This document shows, one piece after another, positions 1 through 6,670 of a stretch of 6,776 bases of DNA. The DNA comes from an uncultured Lachnospiraceae bacterium (GTDB lineage Bacteria > Bacillota_A > Clostridia > Lachnospirales > Lachnospiraceae). The position numbers were made by a program, and so were the translations under genes. The notes beneath the pieces were generated by a model that was given only the letters and a program-made list of their open reading frames with translations, searched no databases and was not told the DNA's origin. The stretch is taken from contig CAMOFS010000085.1 in the NCBI GenBank assembly GCA_946613735.1, positions 1 through 6,776 of the forward strand, written 5' to 3'. Position 1 is the first letter of the stretch. Every line of letters starts with the position of its first letter.

Positions 1-913
1 CTTTGTCAAGGTGGAGAGTGAAAAGGGAAGCGGTACCATGGTTCGTGCAACCATACCCCAAAAGGTGGCCAATGCCGCACCCTGCCTGTCTCTTTCCGAC
101 AGCTTCAAGGGAGATATCCTCTTCCATGTGAGGTCCGACAAATATGAGGTTCCCCGTGTCAGGGATTATTACCGTTTTATGGCTTCCAATCTGGCTTCGG
201 CTATCAGGGTGCCTCTGTATTCCGCTGAGACAAAAAAGGATATAGAGCGCCTTATGGAAAAGCTGGATGTCACCTATATCTTTATGGGCCAGGAGGAGTA
301 TGAAGAGGATCCGGAGTACTTTGACAACCTCAGTCAAAAGGAAGTGGTGGTTGCTGTTTCCGCCTATGCAGGCTTTAAGCCCAGTCCGGGCAGCAGGGTC
401 GTATCCATGCCCAAGCCCCTATATGCCTATCCCGCACTCAAGATTTTAAACGAGGGACGGGATGCGAAAAATATCGAGTATTCGGATAGTGTCACCAGGC
501 CTGTCTTTTCCGGCATAAAGGCTCTTGTGGTAGATGATGAGCCCATGAACCTTGTGGTGGCAAGGAGCATCTTCAGTGAATATGATATGGAGATCGATAC
601 TGCCGACAGTGGCAGGGAAGCTATCGACAAGTTCCACGCGGGCGACTATGACGTGGTCTTTATGGACCACATGATGCCGGAGATGGATGGCGTGGAGGCT
701 ATGAAGCGCATCAAACAGATGGCACAGGAACTGGGCAGGAAGACCGCCGTGGTGGCCCTTACCGCCAATGCTGTTTCCGGTGCCAGGGAGATGTTTATCA
801 CAGAGGGCTTTGACGGATTTATCGCAAAGCCTGTTAATACCCAGGATTTTGAGAGGACCATGCTTTCCGTCCTCCCCGAAAAAGATGATTCACAGGGAGG
901 AAAGAGGGCATGA
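1..913 (+). CDS. Hybrid histidine kinase, 3' part only (end of HATPase, pseudo-receiver, receiver)
   Basis: This is the C-terminal part of a sensor kinase whose 5' end lies left of the window; the first full codon is at position 2. The opening residues, FVKVESEKGSGTMVRATIP, match the last strands of a HATPase_c domain (the 'S..G.GS.F....P' end after the G2 box), so the GTG at 11 is not a real start. A receiver-like fold follows at about 107-451 that lacks the acidic pair and phospho-acceptor Asp but keeps a K-P motif. A complete receiver follows at about 515-880: acidic pair DD at 533-538, phospho-acceptor Asp at 665-667 in MDHMMPEMDG, conserved Thr at 761-763 and Lys at 827-829 in AKPV. No HPt or DNA-binding domain follows. 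It probably autophosphorylates and passes phosphate to its own receiver, and then perhaps to the HPt of the next gene. Its stop overlaps that gene's start (ATGA), indicating translational coupling. The sensor part and the HisKA domain cannot be seen. Confidence 0.9.
   Translation, partial: FVKVESEKGSGTMVRATIPQKVANAAPCLSLSDSFKGDILFHVRSDKYEVPRVRDYYRFMASNLASAIRVPLYSAETKKDIERLMEKLDVTYIFMGQEEYEEDPEYFDNLSQKEVVVAVSAYAGFKPSPGSRVVSMPKPLYAYPALKILNEGRDAKNIEYSDSVTRPVFSGIKALVVDDEPMNLVVARSIFSEYDMEIDTADSGREAIDKFHAGDYDVVFMDHMMPEMDGVEAMKRIKQMAQELGRKTAVVALTANAVSGAREMFITEGFDGFIAKPVNTQDFERTMLSVLPEKDDSQGGKRA
895..903 (+). promoter_or_regulatory. Ribosome binding site of the second kinase, inside the first kinase gene
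   Basis: A purine-rich GGGAGGAAA lies 6 bases before the ATG at 910, with the GGGAGG core ending 9 bases before it. It sits in the last codons of the upstream gene. Together with the ATGA stop/start overlap, this supports ATG 910 as the start and coupling of the two kinases. Confidence 0.7.
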
Positions 914-3900
914 AAAAGTTGGCAAAGCTTTTAAAAGACTATAGAGCTGCGGCATATGATCCAAGCCGTCCCTTTAACGAGAGGGTGTTTTTGGTATTGT
1001 CCCTTGTGGCAGAGATGGTGGTCATCATCGCTCTCATAGGTGATATCATCACTCACGAGGACATAAGGGAGATCGTGCTGATATCCGCAGTGATCATATA
1101 TGTCCCCATTGCCACGATATTTGGCTTATACAAAAACAAGCTCAAGCCTATTATGGCTACCATCGCCATCGGACTGGTATTTGTGGTCACACCGGGGCTG
1201 TACTTTTTTGGAGGAGGTATGTACGGTGGAGGCGTATACTGGATCATCTTCTCGTTTTTGTATATCGGCCTTATTATGACGGGCAGATGGCGCACGACAC
1301 TTTTTGCCTTACTCGCTTTGGAGGCATGGGGTTGCATCCGCTTATCATACAAGCATCCGGAGTATGTTGCGGGACATACGCGCAGCATGCATTATGTGGA
1401 CGCATTTATATCCATTATCCTGGTAGGTATGGTCGGCTTTTTGATGACCTGGTTCCAGAATCTTTTGTTCAAGGATGAAAACCAACGTGCCCAAAAGGCG
1501 GCAGAAAAGGCCGAGGAGCTGGGCCGTGCGCAGAACAGGTTTTTCTCCAGCATGAGCCACGAGATCCGTACTCCCATCAATTCGATCCTGGGTCTTAATG
1601 AACTGACTCTCAGGAATATGGGTGCTACGCCGGACATCATAAAGGATGCGATGGGCATCCAGGGAGCAGGTAAGCTTTTGCTTGCCCTCATTAATGACAT
1701 CCTGGATTTTTCCAAGATGGAGGCCGGCAGCATGGAGATAATCCCGGTGGATTACAGGGTGGGAGACATGATATCCGAGATCGTAAACATGATCTGGATA
1801 AAGGCCCACGACAAGGGACTTAAGTTTGATGTCAGCATCGATCCCGATGTGCCCTCTGTGCTTTACGGAGACGAGGTCAGGATCAAGCAGATCATAATCA
1901 ACCTTCTAAACAACGCTGTAAAGTACACCAAAGAGGGTAGCATCTCACTTCACATAGAAAGCGAGACCCAGGAGGACGAAAAGACGACCCTTTTAAATAT
2001 TTCCGTGACGGATACGGGAATGGGTATAAAAAAGGAGGCTCTGCCGGAGCTTTTCAATGCCTTTAAAAGAGTGGATGAGGAAAAGAACCGTAACATCGAG
2101 GGAACCGGCCTGGGACTTTCCATTGTAAAGCAGCTCATCGACCTTATGGAAGGCGATATCAAGGTCAGCAGTGTATACGGTGAGGGCTCCACCTTTACGG
2201 TCACAGTAAAGCAGGGTATATCCGATGCCACCGAGATCGGGGATCTCAACATTCACAATATACAGGTTCTAAAGAGGGAAAAATACGAAAGCAATTTCAA
2301 GGCTCCCGAGGCCAGGATCCTTATCGTGGATGACAATGAGATGAACCTGGAGGTGGAAAAAAAGCTCCTTGCCGATACACAGATGACCGTGGATCTGGCA
2401 AAAAGCGGCCGGGAGGCCTTGGAGAAATCGGAGTCTGTTAATTATGATGTGATACTCATGGATCATCTCATGCCGCAGATGGATGGTATAGAGTGCCTTG
2501 AGAGACTTCGCAGCCAGACCGGCGGACTCAACCGCATGACTCCCGTGGTGGTGCTTACAGCCAATGCAGGCAGTGATAACAGGGACCTTTACAACAGGGC
2601 AGGCTTTGATGGATATCTGGTAAAGCCCGTATCCGGAGAGACCTTAGAGGACACCCTGATGAAGCATATCTCAAAGGATAAGCTTATCATAACAAGCCGC
2701 GGCATGAGCATGCGGGAGGATATCAGTGCCACCTCTGGTTATACCAGAAAGGCTCCGGTGATGGTCACCTCCACTACCCTGTGCGACCTGCCTACTTATG
2801 TGATAAAAAATCTCAAGCTTTCTCTTTTGCCGTTTTTGATCCAGACAGACGAGGGTGTCTTTAAGGACGGGATCCAGATGGATTCCTACGAGCTGATCCG
2901 CTATCTGAGCAAAGGGAAGAATGCAATATCATCTCCTCCCGACGTAAAGACCTACACGGAGTTTTTCTCCAATGCTCTAAGACGGGCCCATCATCTTATA
3001 CATATATCCATCACCTCGAGTATGAGTGATGACTATAAGATAGCCATGGAGGCGGCAAAGGCCTTTGACAATGTGACGGTGATCAATTCCGAGAGCATTT
3101 CATCCTCCACGGGTCTTTTGGTGATGATAGCCCACAGGCTGGCACAGCAGGGTATCCCCGTGGATGAGATGGTTTCCGAGCTGGAGGAGGTCAAAAAGCG
3201 CCTGCGCTGCAGCTTTGTGATAGAGAATACCTCCTACATGGCTAAAAAGGGCCTTATCAACCGCAGGGTTCACGATATAGCAAGGGCACTAAGCCTGCAT
3301 CCCACCCTCCGCCTTAACAATAACAGAGCTGGGGTGGGCGATATAGCCATAGGAAGCACAAGAAGGGCATACAAAAGATACATACGCAAGGTCATTCCGG
3401 TGGACATAATCCCTGACGAGGAGGTCTGCTTTATCACCTATGTGGACATCCCCACAGAGACACTGGAGTGGATCAAGGAAGAGATAAGCAAGATCGTCTA
3501 CTTTAAGAATGTGGTATTCAAGCAGGCGTCGGCAGCAATATCCTCCAACTGCGGTCCGGGAGCCTTTGGTATCATATATTTTGTCAAGTCCAATAAGTCA
3601 TATAATCTGGGTGCCTATGTCGAGCGGCCGGAGGCTGATGAGGCTGATGCAGTTGCCGCGGCCTATGACGCAGATGAGGCAGCTTCTGATGATGAATTAC
3701 AAGAGGAAAAATGGTATCGGGGCATACCCTTTATCGATGGTGATGCGGCCATTAAAAACAGTGGCTCGGAGGATGCCTTTAAGTCAGTGCTCCAGATCTA
3801 CTATGACTCCATCCCTCTAAAGTCCTCGGAGCTTAAGGACTTTTATGACAGGGGTGACTGGGAGGATTATACCATCAAGATCCACGCCTTAAAGAGCTCG

Positions 3901-4296
3901 GCCAAGCTCATTGGAGCCATCGAGCTTTCCGAAAAAGCCTATAAGCTGGAAATGGCCGGTAAGGAGGGCAACGAAGAATATATCAGGGAACACCATGATG
4001 CCTTCATGGAGGAATACTTAAGGACCGGGGATTATCTCAAGCCTGTCTTTTCAGACGGGCAGGATGAGGAAGCCGGGTCGGACAAGCCCGTAGCTGACGA
4101 GTCCATTATGGCAAGTGTATTTGATGGCATAAAGGAGGCCGCCGAGAGGATGGACTGCGATGCCATAGAGGAGATACTCGAAGAACTTTCGGATTATCAG
4201 ATCCCGGACAGTTGTAAAGAGAAGTATGATGCGGTCATTGGAAGGTTTGAAGCCTTCGACTACGACGGAATATCTGAGGTGCTTAATGCTGAATAG
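910..4296 (+). CDS. Membrane hybrid histidine kinase with embedded DegV domain and HPt (6TM-HisKA-HATPase-REC-DegV-HPt)
   Basis: This is a complete 1128-residue sensor kinase. Residues about 26-183 hold roughly six hydrophobic segments, with a glycine-rich GGGMYGGG loop at 101-108; there is no large extracellular domain and no HAMP. A charged helix (186-208) leads to the HisKA H-box FFSSMSHEIRTP with catalytic His217. The HATPase domain shows the N box (NLLNNAVKYT, 331-340), the G1 box (DTGMG) and the G2 box (GTGLGLS). The receiver (about 467-588) has Asp474/475, acceptor Asp518, Thr550 and Lys572. Residues about 616-900 read as a DegV/EDD domain. An acidic Ala/Asp/Glu linker (905-935) follows, then an HPt domain (about 950-1037) with His992 in IHALKSSAKL, then a short helical tail (1063-1128). 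It should run a His-Asp-His relay from the inner face of the membrane. It is cotranslated with the kinase before it and the symporter after it. The ligand is unknown. Kinase, receiver and HPt calls are firm; DegV is assigned from its motif order. Confidence 0.93.
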   Translation: MKKLAKLLKDYRAAAYDPSRPFNERVFLVLSLVAEMVVIIALIGDIITHEDIREIVLISAVIIYVPIATIFGLYKNKLKPIMATIAIGLVFVVTPGLYFFGGGMYGGGVYWIIFSFLYIGLIMTGRWRTTLFALLALEAWGCIRLSYKHPEYVAGHTRSMHYVDAFISIILVGMVGFLMTWFQNLLFKDENQRAQKAAEKAEELGRAQNRFFSSMSHEIRTPINSILGLNELTLRNMGATPDIIKDAMGIQGAGKLLLALINDILDFSKMEAGSMEIIPVDYRVGDMISEIVNMIWIKAHDKGLKFDVSIDPDVPSVLYGDEVRIKQIIINLLNNAVKYTKEGSISLHIESETQEDEKTTLLNISVTDTGMGIKKEALPELFNAFKRVDEEKNRNIEGTGLGLSIVKQLIDLMEGDIKVSSVYGEGSTFTVTVKQGISDATEIGDLNIHNIQVLKREKYESNFKAPEARILIVDDNEMNLEVEKKLLADTQMTVDLAKSGREALEKSESVNYDVILMDHLMPQMDGIECLERLRSQTGGLNRMTPVVVLTANAGSDNRDLYNRAGFDGYLVKPVSGETLEDTLMKHISKDKLIITSRGMSMREDISATSGYTRKAPVMVTSTTLCDLPTYVIKNLKLSLLPFLIQTDEGVFKDGIQMDSYELIRYLSKGKNAISSPPDVKTYTEFFSNALRRAHHLIHISITSSMSDDYKIAMEAAKAFDNVTVINSESISSSTGLLVMIAHRLAQQGIPVDEMVSELEEVKKRLRCSFVIENTSYMAKKGLINRRVHDIARALSLHPTLRLNNNRAGVGDIAIGSTRRAYKRYIRKVIPVDIIPDEEVCFITYVDIPTETLEWIKEEISKIVYFKNVVFKQASAAISSNCGPGAFGIIYFVKSNKSYNLGAYVERPEADEADAVAAAYDADEAASDDELQEEKWYRGIPFIDGDAAIKNSGSEDAFKSVLQIYYDSIPLKSSELKDFYDRGDWEDYTIKIHALKSSAKLIGAIELSEKAYKLEMAGKEGNEEYIREHHDAFMEEYLRTGDYLKPVFSDGQDEEAGSDKPVADESIMASVFDGIKEAAERMDCDAIEEILEELSDYQIPDSCKEKYDAVIGRFEAFDYDGISEVLNAE
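2755..3609 (+). other. DegV/EDD-type (fatty-acid-binding-like) domain inside the second kinase
   Basis: Residues about 616-900 follow the DegV motif order. VMVTSTTLCDLP matches the N-terminal 'VTDSTCDLP' strand, and LLPFLI with FKDG matches the 'vvPL.v...y.DG' region. ISSPPDVKTYTEFF stands where 'TSQPS...f...f' is usual. HISITSSMSDDYKIAMEAA matches 'I.iSs.lSGTYqsA..A', and VINSESISSSTGLLVMIA matches 'viDS...s.G.g..v..a'. SFVIENTSYMAKKGLINRR matches the 'yL.kGGRi' region, and SSNCGPGAFGIIYF matches the C-terminal 'HTGPGalgi.f'. DegV/FakB proteins are known to bind long-chain fatty acids and, in the FakAB system, present them for phosphorylation. Here the domain lies between a receiver and an HPt, so a sensory role is inferred. 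Several usual ligand-contact positions are changed, notably His to Asn880, so the ligand may differ or be lost. Confidence 0.82.
3631..3648 (+). repeat. Two tandem copies of the 9-base unit GAGGCTGAT in the linker
   Basis: GAGGCTGAT is repeated directly, encoding EADEAD. It lies in the acidic, Ala-rich linker between the DegV and HPt domains of the second kinase. In-frame slippage here would alter only linker length. Two copies alone are weak evidence of instability. Confidence 0.6.
4275..4281 (+). promoter_or_regulatory. Ribosome binding site that sets the symporter start
   Basis: TGAGGTG lies 4 bases before the ATG at 4286, within the last codons of the second kinase. It favours this ATG over the in-frame ATG at 4226, which would add 20 charged residues in front of a transport protein and lengthen the overlap with the kinase gene to 71 bases. 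Confidence 0.6.
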
Positions 4297-5812
4297 TATA
4301 ATAGAGATCGATAGCGCCATAAATGGCTTTGTATGGGGCACCTTTGGACTCGTCCTGCTTTTGGGGACAGGCCTTTTATGCACCATTGTCACAGGCTTTT
4401 TCCAGATAGTCCACATCAGGCACTGGATCAGTAAGACCTTTGGCATCATCAACAAAGAGGGCAGGGTCATAAATGATGCGGGAGCCCTGTCACAGTTCAG
4501 AGCCTTTTGCACAGCCCTTACCGCCACCATCGGGACGGGAAATATAGCCGGTGTATCCACAGCCATCTGCGTGGGAGGTCCCGGGGCAGTGTTCTGGATG
4601 TGGGTGGCCGCATTTTTCGGTATGATGCTTAAGTTCTCGGAAAACGTTCTGGGAATATACTACAGACGGAGGAATGCAGAGGGAGCCTGGTCAGGCGGTC
4701 CCATGTATTACCTCCAGGATGGCCTGGGCTCCATGAAGCACTGCAGGATCCTGGGAAGAGTGATGGGTATCCTCTTTTGTATATTTATGGTGCTGGCTTC
4801 TTTCGGTATCGGCAACATGGGTCAGATCAACAAGATCACTATCAACGTCAGGTCCACCTTTTTATCGGGGACGGACCTGGGAACAGCCTTCGGGATACCC
4901 ATGGAAAGCTGGGCTATCGGTTTTTTACTTATGCTGGCTGCGGCACTGATCATCCTGGGCGGCTTCAGGCGACTGGCCGTCGTATCAGAGAGACTGGTGC
5001 CTTTTATGTGCATAGCCTATGTGGCAGGCTGCCTTTTGATCATCATCATCAACTACAGGATGCTGCCGGAGATCATTGCCTCCATCTTCAGATTCGCCCT
5101 CGGCCCCAGGGCCGTGGTGGGAGGAACTGCCGGGACGGCTATACAGCTTGCATTAAATACCATTAAAAATGGCTGCAAGAGAGGAGTATTCTCCAACGAG
5201 GCAGGACTGGGGTCATCGGTGATAGTGCATAGCAACACCTGTGCCAGGGAGCCGGTAAAGCAGGGACTCTGGGGTATAGCAGAGGTGTTTTTGGACACCA
5301 TGGTGATCTGCAATATGACGGCCCTGGTGGTTCTGGGCTCCGGAGCCATAGACCTTTCCACGGGTCTGGTGGCAGAGGGCACCAATGATACCACTTTGGT
5401 GGCAAAAGCCTTTGGGGCGTCCCTTGGTACGGTGGGCGAGCTTTTTGTGGTGCTGGCCATTGCCCTTTTTGCCTTTACCACTGTTATGGGCTGGTCTTAC
5501 TATGGAGCCAAGGCTACGGAGTATCTCTTCGGTGTGCGATGGGCCAAGGTATACAGGGTGGTCTTTATCATGCTTATTGTATTGGGCGCTGTCATGGAGT
5601 CCAATCTGGCATGGGATATCAGTGATACCTTTAACGGGCTTATGATGATCCCGAACCTTATCGGGCTTATCGCTCAGACACCGCTTATCATCAGGCTGAC
5701 CCATAATTATATCGACCGTAGGATAAGAAAAAAGGATGTAAGGCCCCTTTTGTCCTATGATCCCAATATCCAGAGGGATGCGCAGATTGCCATAGAAAAA
5801 GGAATGGATTAA
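4286..5812 (+). CDS. Amino acid:sodium symporter, AGCS family (alanine/glycine type)
   Basis: This is a 508-residue polytopic membrane protein that most likely imports alanine, glycine or a related small amino acid with sodium. Family hallmarks are clear. There is GTGNIAGVSTAICVGGPGAVF at about 83-103, continuing into FWMWVAAFFGMMLKFSE, then SGGPMYYLQDGLG at about 136-148, and GVFSNEAGLGSS at about 300-311, which is the conserved helix of AGCS carriers. Many hydrophobic segments fill the rest, consistent with the family's roughly 10-11 helices. The length is at the upper end of the usual range (about 450-500), the extra residues being a charged tail (RRIRKKDVRPLLS onward). ATG 4286 was chosen for its nearby TGAGGTG and the short 11-base overlap with the kinase gene. 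The overlap points to cotranslation with the sensor kinases, which suggests related regulation or function. The exact substrate cannot be read from the sequence. Confidence 0.93.
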   Translation: MLNSIIEIDSAINGFVWGTFGLVLLLGTGLLCTIVTGFFQIVHIRHWISKTFGIINKEGRVINDAGALSQFRAFCTALTATIGTGNIAGVSTAICVGGPGAVFWMWVAAFFGMMLKFSENVLGIYYRRRNAEGAWSGGPMYYLQDGLGSMKHCRILGRVMGILFCIFMVLASFGIGNMGQINKITINVRSTFLSGTDLGTAFGIPMESWAIGFLLMLAAALIILGGFRRLAVVSERLVPFMCIAYVAGCLLIIIINYRMLPEIIASIFRFALGPRAVVGGTAGTAIQLALNTIKNGCKRGVFSNEAGLGSSVIVHSNTCAREPVKQGLWGIAEVFLDTMVICNMTALVVLGSGAIDLSTGLVAEGTNDTTLVAKAFGASLGTVGELFVVLAIALFAFTTVMGWSYYGAKATEYLFGVRWAKVYRVVFIMLIVLGAVMESNLAWDISDTFNGLMMIPNLIGLIAQTPLIIRLTHNYIDRRIRKKDVRPLLSYDPNIQRDAQIAIEKGMD

Positions 5813-5860: not shown

Positions 5861-6670
5861 ATGAATGAAGAAAAACGCGTTGTTGTAGTCAGGGACAAGG
5901 AGAGTGTCGTAGTCCGTGGCATAGAAAGAAAGCTCAAGGAAAATGAATATTTTGTATTCATGTCCGGCATTGCAGAAGACGAGATACGCGGTAACGTGGA
6001 GAGGGCTGCTATGTTTATCACCTACCTTCCCGCGGATATCATTGATAATATCAAGGAGATCAGGAGACTGGAGACCATGTGCTCCCTGATAAGCGAAGGA
6101 AAAAGGCGGATGGTGGTCATCGGCGAAAAGAAGTATCATGATGAGCTTTTAGCCAAGGTTCCTGCTATAAGGGCCCATCCCTGGATCGACCGACCCCTTG
6201 ATATGGATGAGCTTATGAGTGTGATGGAGGGCGAGCTCAACAGAAAGGATGAGCCTGTAGTTGCACCTGTAGTTGACGATGCTGCTTCTTCAAAAGGCGA
6301 AAAGCGTATCCTCGTAGTGGATGACGATCCCGCATACGCAAGGATGGTCAGGGAGTGGCTGAAGGACATTTACAAGGTGGATATCGTTACCGCCGGTATG
6401 CAGGCCATCACCTTTTTGGCAAAGAACAAGGTGGATATGATCCTTTTGGATTATGAGATGCCCATCGCTGACGGGCCCCAGGTGCTTGAGATGCTCCGCT
6501 CCGAGCCGGCTATGGCAGATATACCTGTCATCTTTTTGACCGGCGTAGGGGATCTGGAGAGCGTAAAGAGGGTAATGGCTCTAAAGCCCCAGGGGTATAT
6601 TTTAAAGAGTACCACAAAGGAAGATCTTCGGAATACGATTAAGACCAATTTTGAGAAGCTGTCGTCATAG
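5861..6670 (+). CDS. Response regulator with pseudo-receiver plus receiver and no output domain
   Basis: This is a 269-residue soluble protein. The C-terminal domain (about 147-268) is a standard receiver: KRILVVDDDP with Asp154/155, acceptor Asp197 in LLDYEMP, Thr227 in FLTG, and Lys249 in YILKS, where the usual Lys-Pro is Lys-Ser. The N-terminal domain (about 4-127) has the same strand pattern (RVVVVRDKES, AAMFITYLP, RRMVVIG, PWIDRPLD). However, it lacks the phospho-acceptor Asp (Ile or Thr stands at the site), has a single Asp in the acidic pocket, and has Arg111 where the Lys should be; this makes it a degenerate receiver. A Val/Pro/Asp-rich linker (about 128-146) joins the two. There is no DNA-binding, GGDEF or other effector domain. 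It could be a relay intermediate, a phosphate sink, or a regulator acting by protein contact. Its place 48 bases after the symporter suggests that it is a partner of the two kinases. Confidence 0.88.
   Translation: MNEEKRVVVVRDKESVVVRGIERKLKENEYFVFMSGIAEDEIRGNVERAAMFITYLPADIIDNIKEIRRLETMCSLISEGKRRMVVIGEKKYHDELLAKVPAIRAHPWIDRPLDMDELMSVMEGELNRKDEPVVAPVVDDAASSKGEKRILVVDDDPAYARMVREWLKDIYKVDIVTAGMQAITFLAKNKVDMILLDYEMPIADGPQVLEMLRSEPAMADIPVIFLTGVGDLESVKRVMALKPQGYILKSTTKEDLRNTIKTNFEKLSS

Follow-up and report, generated by a model that had tools for sequence, protein, structure and literature searches.

DegV domains are carriers for fatty acid kinase. The RcsC–RcsD pair consists of two membrane proteins whose relay runs through one histidine phosphotransfer (HPt) domain on one partner, the kinase core of RcsD being degenerate. 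To our knowledge, no DegV domain occurs in RpfC, the layout of which we take to be histidine kinase, receiver (REC) and HPt domain, or in the kinase of the SaeRS two-component system. RpfC is described as a membrane kinase that is activated by a fatty acid signal and binds diffusible signal factor (DSF) via a 22-residue N-terminal region (PMC5391125), and in Staphylococcus aureus the reported influence of fatty acids on SaeRS is an effect of the free fatty acid pool (PMC5539427). Here, we describe a DegV domain built into a hybrid histidine kinase that is encoded in a 6,776-nucleotide stretch of DNA (the window) from an uncultured Lachnospiraceae bacterium (contig CAMOFS010000085.1).

The window contains four + strand genes: the 3′ end of a hybrid kinase (HKup), an 1128-residue kinase, a symporter and a receiver protein. 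The 1128-residue protein opens with probable membrane helices, continues with HisKA, HATPase, a receiver, DegV and HPt, and closes with a helical domain. We propose, with a probability of about 0.5, that this DegV kinase and HKup form an obligate two-kinase relay sharing a single HPt, with DegV as a dedicated ligand-sensing module. The parts of HKup and of the DegV kinase are as follows.

2..913 (+): 3′ part of the upstream partner kinase HKup, with a middle domain without a Pfam match (83–520), a receiver (524–850) and no HPt
910..4296 (+): DegV-containing hybrid histidine kinase, 1128 residues, intact open reading frame
910..1479 (+): putative N-terminal membrane region, residues 1–190, with long helices in an AlphaFold2 (AF2) model
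1528..1728 (+): HisKA, phospho-acceptor His217 (1558–1560), by profile match
1867..2214 (+): HATPase_c, by profile match
2317..2655 (+): receiver domain, Asp518 (2461–2463), by profile match and alignment
2755..3609 (+): DegV domain, residues 616–900, by profiles, structure alignment and predicted fold
3787..3981 (+): HPt domain, His992 (3883–3885), a sub-threshold match in the window
4087..4293 (+): C-terminal helical domain after the HPt, from the AF2 model

Residues 616–900 match PF02645 over the full domain (119.5 bits against a curated cut-off of 27) and TIGR00762 (134.8 bits against 99.7); with the predicted fold and the alignment to solved structures, the DegV assignment is unambiguous. 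The window domain thus belongs to the DegV superfamily, sharing its fold and a full-length profile match with the FakB/DegV fatty-acid binders (FakB1, 5uto; FakB2, 4x9x; 1pzx), and the scores and fold exclude a chance profile match. These results bear out the sequence-only reading, which had placed a DegV lipid-binding-type domain between the receiver and the HPt of a hybrid kinase. An assembly or frameshift artefact was rejected, as the reading frame is intact and the order is common to hundreds of homologues. Judged from the sequence, the protein has the HisKA His, HATPase, receiver Asp and HPt His of a hybrid kinase with an HPt; His217 and His992 are invariant in a 106-row alignment, and the HPt scores above threshold in the homologue L001. 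Of the 130 DegV proteins bearing both domains, 128 retain the kinase His and receiver Asp motifs, in contrast to the degenerate kinase core of RcsD; the DegV domain is a further difference from the RcsC–RcsD pair. The N-terminal region, with an identity of about 35–54% in most of 80 relative loci, is probably membrane-embedded, judging by eye from its hydrophobicity.

Similar fusions in related Clostridia, suspected from the window alone, do exist. A protein search with residues 616–1030 (E ≤ 1e-5, the length range of candidates being taken from the full protein) returned at least 434 proteins, the window's own included; 115 of the 120 matches listed combine DegV with HisKA, HATPase and REC, and the other five are shorter and have no kinase parts. 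A scan of genome contigs gave 403 relatives, 80 of which were kept as loci of this long type, and all six parts stand in the same order in 74 of them. By record title, the 80 loci come from Lachnospiraceae or Butyrivibrio, with single records of Lachnospira, Clostridiaceae, Clostridia and an uncultured bacterium. Lachnospiraceae account for the close relatives, the highest DegV identity being 69%, and rumen samples are frequent in the record titles. A second class, of about 900 residues, reads HisKA-HATPase-REC-DegV with DegV C-terminal and no HPt. A query of this class matched at least 525 proteins at E ≤ 1e-10 (candidates of 493–1570 residues), which may include the long type beyond the 120 listed; those listed (506–918 residues) are of this class or fragments, have no HPt and are mostly from Lachnospiraceae where named, with a few from Butyrivibrio, Eubacterium, Ruminococcaceae, Oscillospiraceae, Clostridiales and Saccharofermentans. 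One protein, L116 (485 residues), is DegV-HPt alone, its own receiver and kinase being absent. Frames of at least 500 residues matching DegV occur in 34/200 genomes of the window's family and 10/391 of its class, or nine once G244 is removed; the G244 protein (L167, 469 residues) was rejected as a fusion, being a standalone DegV whose open frame merely extends far at the 5′ end and in which all five FakB-type residues are kept.

In a DegV tree of 54 rows the 22 fused forms lie together across one branch (support 100/100), as do 68 fused forms in a tree of 101 rows (SH-like approximate likelihood ratio test, SH-aLRT, 100); this split, which is unrooted, would fit one capture event for the DegV domain. 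The nearest standalone DegVs in the first tree are from Lachnospiraceae (L091, L097 and L101) and have an HCGPG motif. Databases already label the fusion proteins 'DegV family protein', and the titles and abstract openings among the matches listed for DegV and kinase literature do not describe such fusions; in one paper, DegV is tied to hemolysin III only as a gene neighbour (PMC3146951). The fusions amount to a large DegV clade that has become part of signalling proteins, chiefly those of Lachnospiraceae, with its carrier residues replaced.

The partner HKup is a protein of about 683 residues with HisKA, HATPase, the unmatched middle domain, which looks like a degenerate receiver, and a receiver. 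In the window, the end of its frame and the start of the DegV kinase share 4 bp (910–913); among relatives it lies directly upstream in 72 of the 73 loci with room for it, with the 4-bp overlap in 60 of the 72. The sequence-only reading had not noticed this almost invariant pairing. A sub-threshold ADP-ribosyltransferase match in the HKup of L032 was taken as spurious (19.7 bits against a threshold of 23.4). In ten genomes, picked for carrying the long type, each with 4–9 DegV matches (in total 31 in long frames, 45 standalone and two partial), a query with the HKup middle domain gave 31 matches against 31 fused DegVs, and 30 pair by coordinates. The unpaired leftovers, one of each kind (C65 and C51 of G010), are both near a contig end; at the thresholds used, neither element was seen alone within a contig of these genomes.

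Small hidden Markov models (HMMs) built per domain were then applied to 139 loci, 122 of which have a called upstream neighbour. The neighbour has no HPt in 76/76 cases in which the DegV protein has one (one of these neighbours, in L042, is not a typical HKup) and carries the HPt in 43 of the 46 cases in which the DegV protein does not. HPt is therefore found on exactly one side in 119 of 122 pairs of related, non-independent sequences. The count leaves out 11 rows with less than 600 bp upstream and six without a called neighbour in the search interval; of these rows, L167 is the standalone DegV described above, and a REC-HPt protein is nevertheless encoded within the loci of L132, L133 and L158. 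Five of the 122 neighbours are cut at the locus edge, away from the HPt-bearing end. The HPt model included the tails of seven partners from these pairs, and a model from the long type alone recognized the same proteins except L114_5 and L158_7, both outside the pairs. An apparent HPt on both sides in L140 and L168 is an artefact of picking by equal partner and DegV-protein length. Among the exceptions, the DegV protein of L021 ends early near a contig end, with the HPt in the next open frame. Because HPt location changes at least three times on the DegV tree, where nearby node support is modest, the pattern is unlikely to be one frozen event. It separately points to the two neighbouring kinases working as a single machine, and the likeness to RcsC–RcsD lies in one HPt shared by two partners.

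FakB/DegV proteins are standalone carriers, whereas the window domain is kinase-fused and most FakB-defining residues are missing. The FakB2 motif positions, which we take to be numbered 61, 93, 170, 202 and 266, were located in 4x9x, where Thr, Ser, Arg, Arg and His align with Ser674, Thr702, Leu782, Ile814 and Asn880. The Thr-Ser-His network is thus incomplete, with both hydroxyls kept and the His replaced by Asn880 (invariant in the 106-row alignment), and both FakB-conserved arginines are absent. For FakB1, the carboxylate network is reported as Thr62, Ser95, Ser171 and His270, and Arg173 and Arg205 as completely conserved and essential, with roles in catalysis and in docking to FakA and the membrane (PMC8892158); we infer the correspondence between the motif positions and these numbers, and Ser171 was not scored as such. 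Among 68 fused domains, the Arg202-type (FakA-docking) residue is kept in two and the Arg170-type residue in 28, and none has both together with His or Tyr. The pocket hydroxyls are often retained and the His is not. Standalone DegVs of the ten genomes keep Arg170 in 30/30 and Arg202 in 29/30, with His in 17 and Tyr in eight of the 25 readable at the His position, in a set that is the best-scoring 30 of 45 and favours canonical ones. The NCBIfam FakB1 equivalog cut-off was missed (55.2 bits against 350), and on these residues the window domain is not a FakB. FakA-like_C was found in 10/10 genomes; as the FakB Arg and His residues are mostly lost in fused and kept in standalone domains, the fused domain is unlikely to be a spare FakB. 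Fatty acid occupancy as put forward in the sequence-only reading is not supported in that form, the carboxylate and FakA-docking residues being mostly replaced. The domain is under purifying selection, with a ratio of nonsynonymous to synonymous substitution rates (dN/dS) of about 0.11 in the few readable of ten close pairs, many of which were unusable (n = 2 for REC).

Two other ideas about the pocket were set aside. One was covalent acyl sensing through the Cys of an Asn-Cys pair next to the headgroup site, rejected as this Cys is present in no more than 45/68 fused domains and also in four standalone DegVs. The other was a FakB1-like mobile lid, for or against which the models do not speak: residues 151–200 are the least confident in the domain model, yet have block means of 84–92 in the full-length model.

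Set beside the computed domain order, predicted fold, single clade, residue loss, pairing, one-HPt pattern and constraint, the two-kinase relay would work as follows. The DegV kinase and HKup would act jointly as one obligate phosphorelay with a single HPt in common, and the DegV domain would be its sensory module, a FakB-like pocket detached from the fatty acid kinase pathway. A hydrophobic ligand, bound in the cytosol or on the inner face of the membrane, would alter either the balance between kinase and phosphatase activity or the passage of phosphate to the common HPt, at whichever site and in whichever direction, and the signal would pass onward to receiver proteins encoded nearby. The likeness to RpfC would then extend from the membrane histidine kinase to a lipid-type signal, the ligand here being putative. 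If the DegV domain binds lipid, membrane or host lipids would be linked directly to a phosphorelay. We hold more tentatively the fuller picture of lineage-specific, lipid-sensing composite phosphorelays made of two co-translated membrane kinases, one movable HPt and a FakB-like pocket turned sensor. The DegV kinase and its near-invariant neighbour suggest an unexplored sensing system with a putative ligand.

The alternative that survives best, though we judge it unlikely, is a scaffold in which the DegV fold is kept, ligand binding is lost and the domain holds both kinases and the HPt in register. The lost headgroup residues and the presence of DegV whichever protein holds the HPt would fit, and many of the most conserved fused-form columns are occupied by Gly, Phe, Ala or Asp, for which a structural role is conceivable; but the near-uniform His-to-Asn replacement is not random decay, and the low dN/dS also speaks against it. 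Rather improbable is an output domain, with the receiver governing DegV so that its phosphorylation would turn the capture or release of lipid, or docking to the membrane, on or off. DegV does directly follow REC, where response regulators bear outputs, is C-terminal in the 900-residue class and sits in apparently membrane-anchored proteins. However, L116 has DegV-HPt without its own receiver or kinase, the FakA-docking Arg is nearly always lost and a conserved HPt suggests onward signalling. The gate in cis of the sequence-only reading, in which a DegV domain situated between Asp518 and His992 would, depending on fatty acid occupancy, prevent or permit phosphotransfer from the one to the other, is more doubtful still. 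It draws on the REC-DegV-HPt order in the window and relatives, but 52 of the 58 fused proteins of L111–L169 have no HPt; in the 900-residue class it lies on the partner in 43 of the 46 cases where that is readable, so that the role of DegV there does not depend on a position between REC and HPt. As DegV, HKup and one HPt are common to three architectures, a ligand-sensing two-kinase complex is preferred over such a gate. A tethered FakB still passing fatty acid to FakA, for which FakA-like_C in every genome and family membership could speak, is very improbable given the loss of arginines reported as completely conserved and essential in FakB1 (PMC8892158).

Several observations weigh against the two-kinase relay with a ligand-sensing DegV domain. 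The headgroup His is retained in 1/68 fused domains, with Asn in 60/68, and the Ser93-type position is Ala in 21/68, and a pocket with such an altered headgroup site may bind another ligand or nothing. The partner tails of L143 and L152, the other exceptions among the pairs, are HPt-like by eye and were not recognized by the model, and the partners in L114, L117, L120 and L158 have an HPt without a recognizable His; some relays may therefore bypass that HPt. To these are added the relatedness of the pairs and the two selections noted above, of genomes and of standalone DegVs.

L114 (207–2687, +) and L120 (134–2614, +) combine the His-less partner HPt with a DegV domain that reads IHGSG in place of NCGPG, and are possibly a rewired subgroup.

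Downstream of the DegV kinase, the window contains two further genes.

4226..5812 (+): sodium:alanine symporter family protein, by profile match, its true start probably downstream of 4226
5861..6670 (+): response regulator, an N-terminal part without a Pfam match and a C-terminal receiver; no output domain matched in Pfam

Among the 80 loci of the long type, a symporter lies near the fusion in 66 and a receiver protein like that at 5861–6670 near the pair in 63. A DUF6976 protein occurs near the DegV kinase in 32, often before the symporter (for example, L018:9874–10836, +), and REC-GGDEF in 31, from which the relay output may include cyclic di-GMP (c-di-GMP); neighbour Pfam names are those of one representative per cluster. 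Further HK-REC-HPt kinases are also common nearby. A cluster of 33 neighbouring kinases was not taken as hydrogenase-like throughout, as the hydrogenase-like part, carried by an Fe-S kinase that also has REC and HPt, occurs in 9/80 loci alone. One of these, an 882-residue kinase (L040:672–3317, +), joins HisKA, REC and HPt to 4Fe-4S and iron-only-hydrogenase C-terminal domains; its HATPase has no Pfam match, and it is possibly a redox or hydrogen sensor. By eye, a sequence resembling the C-terminal helical domain of the DegV kinase also ends this protein.
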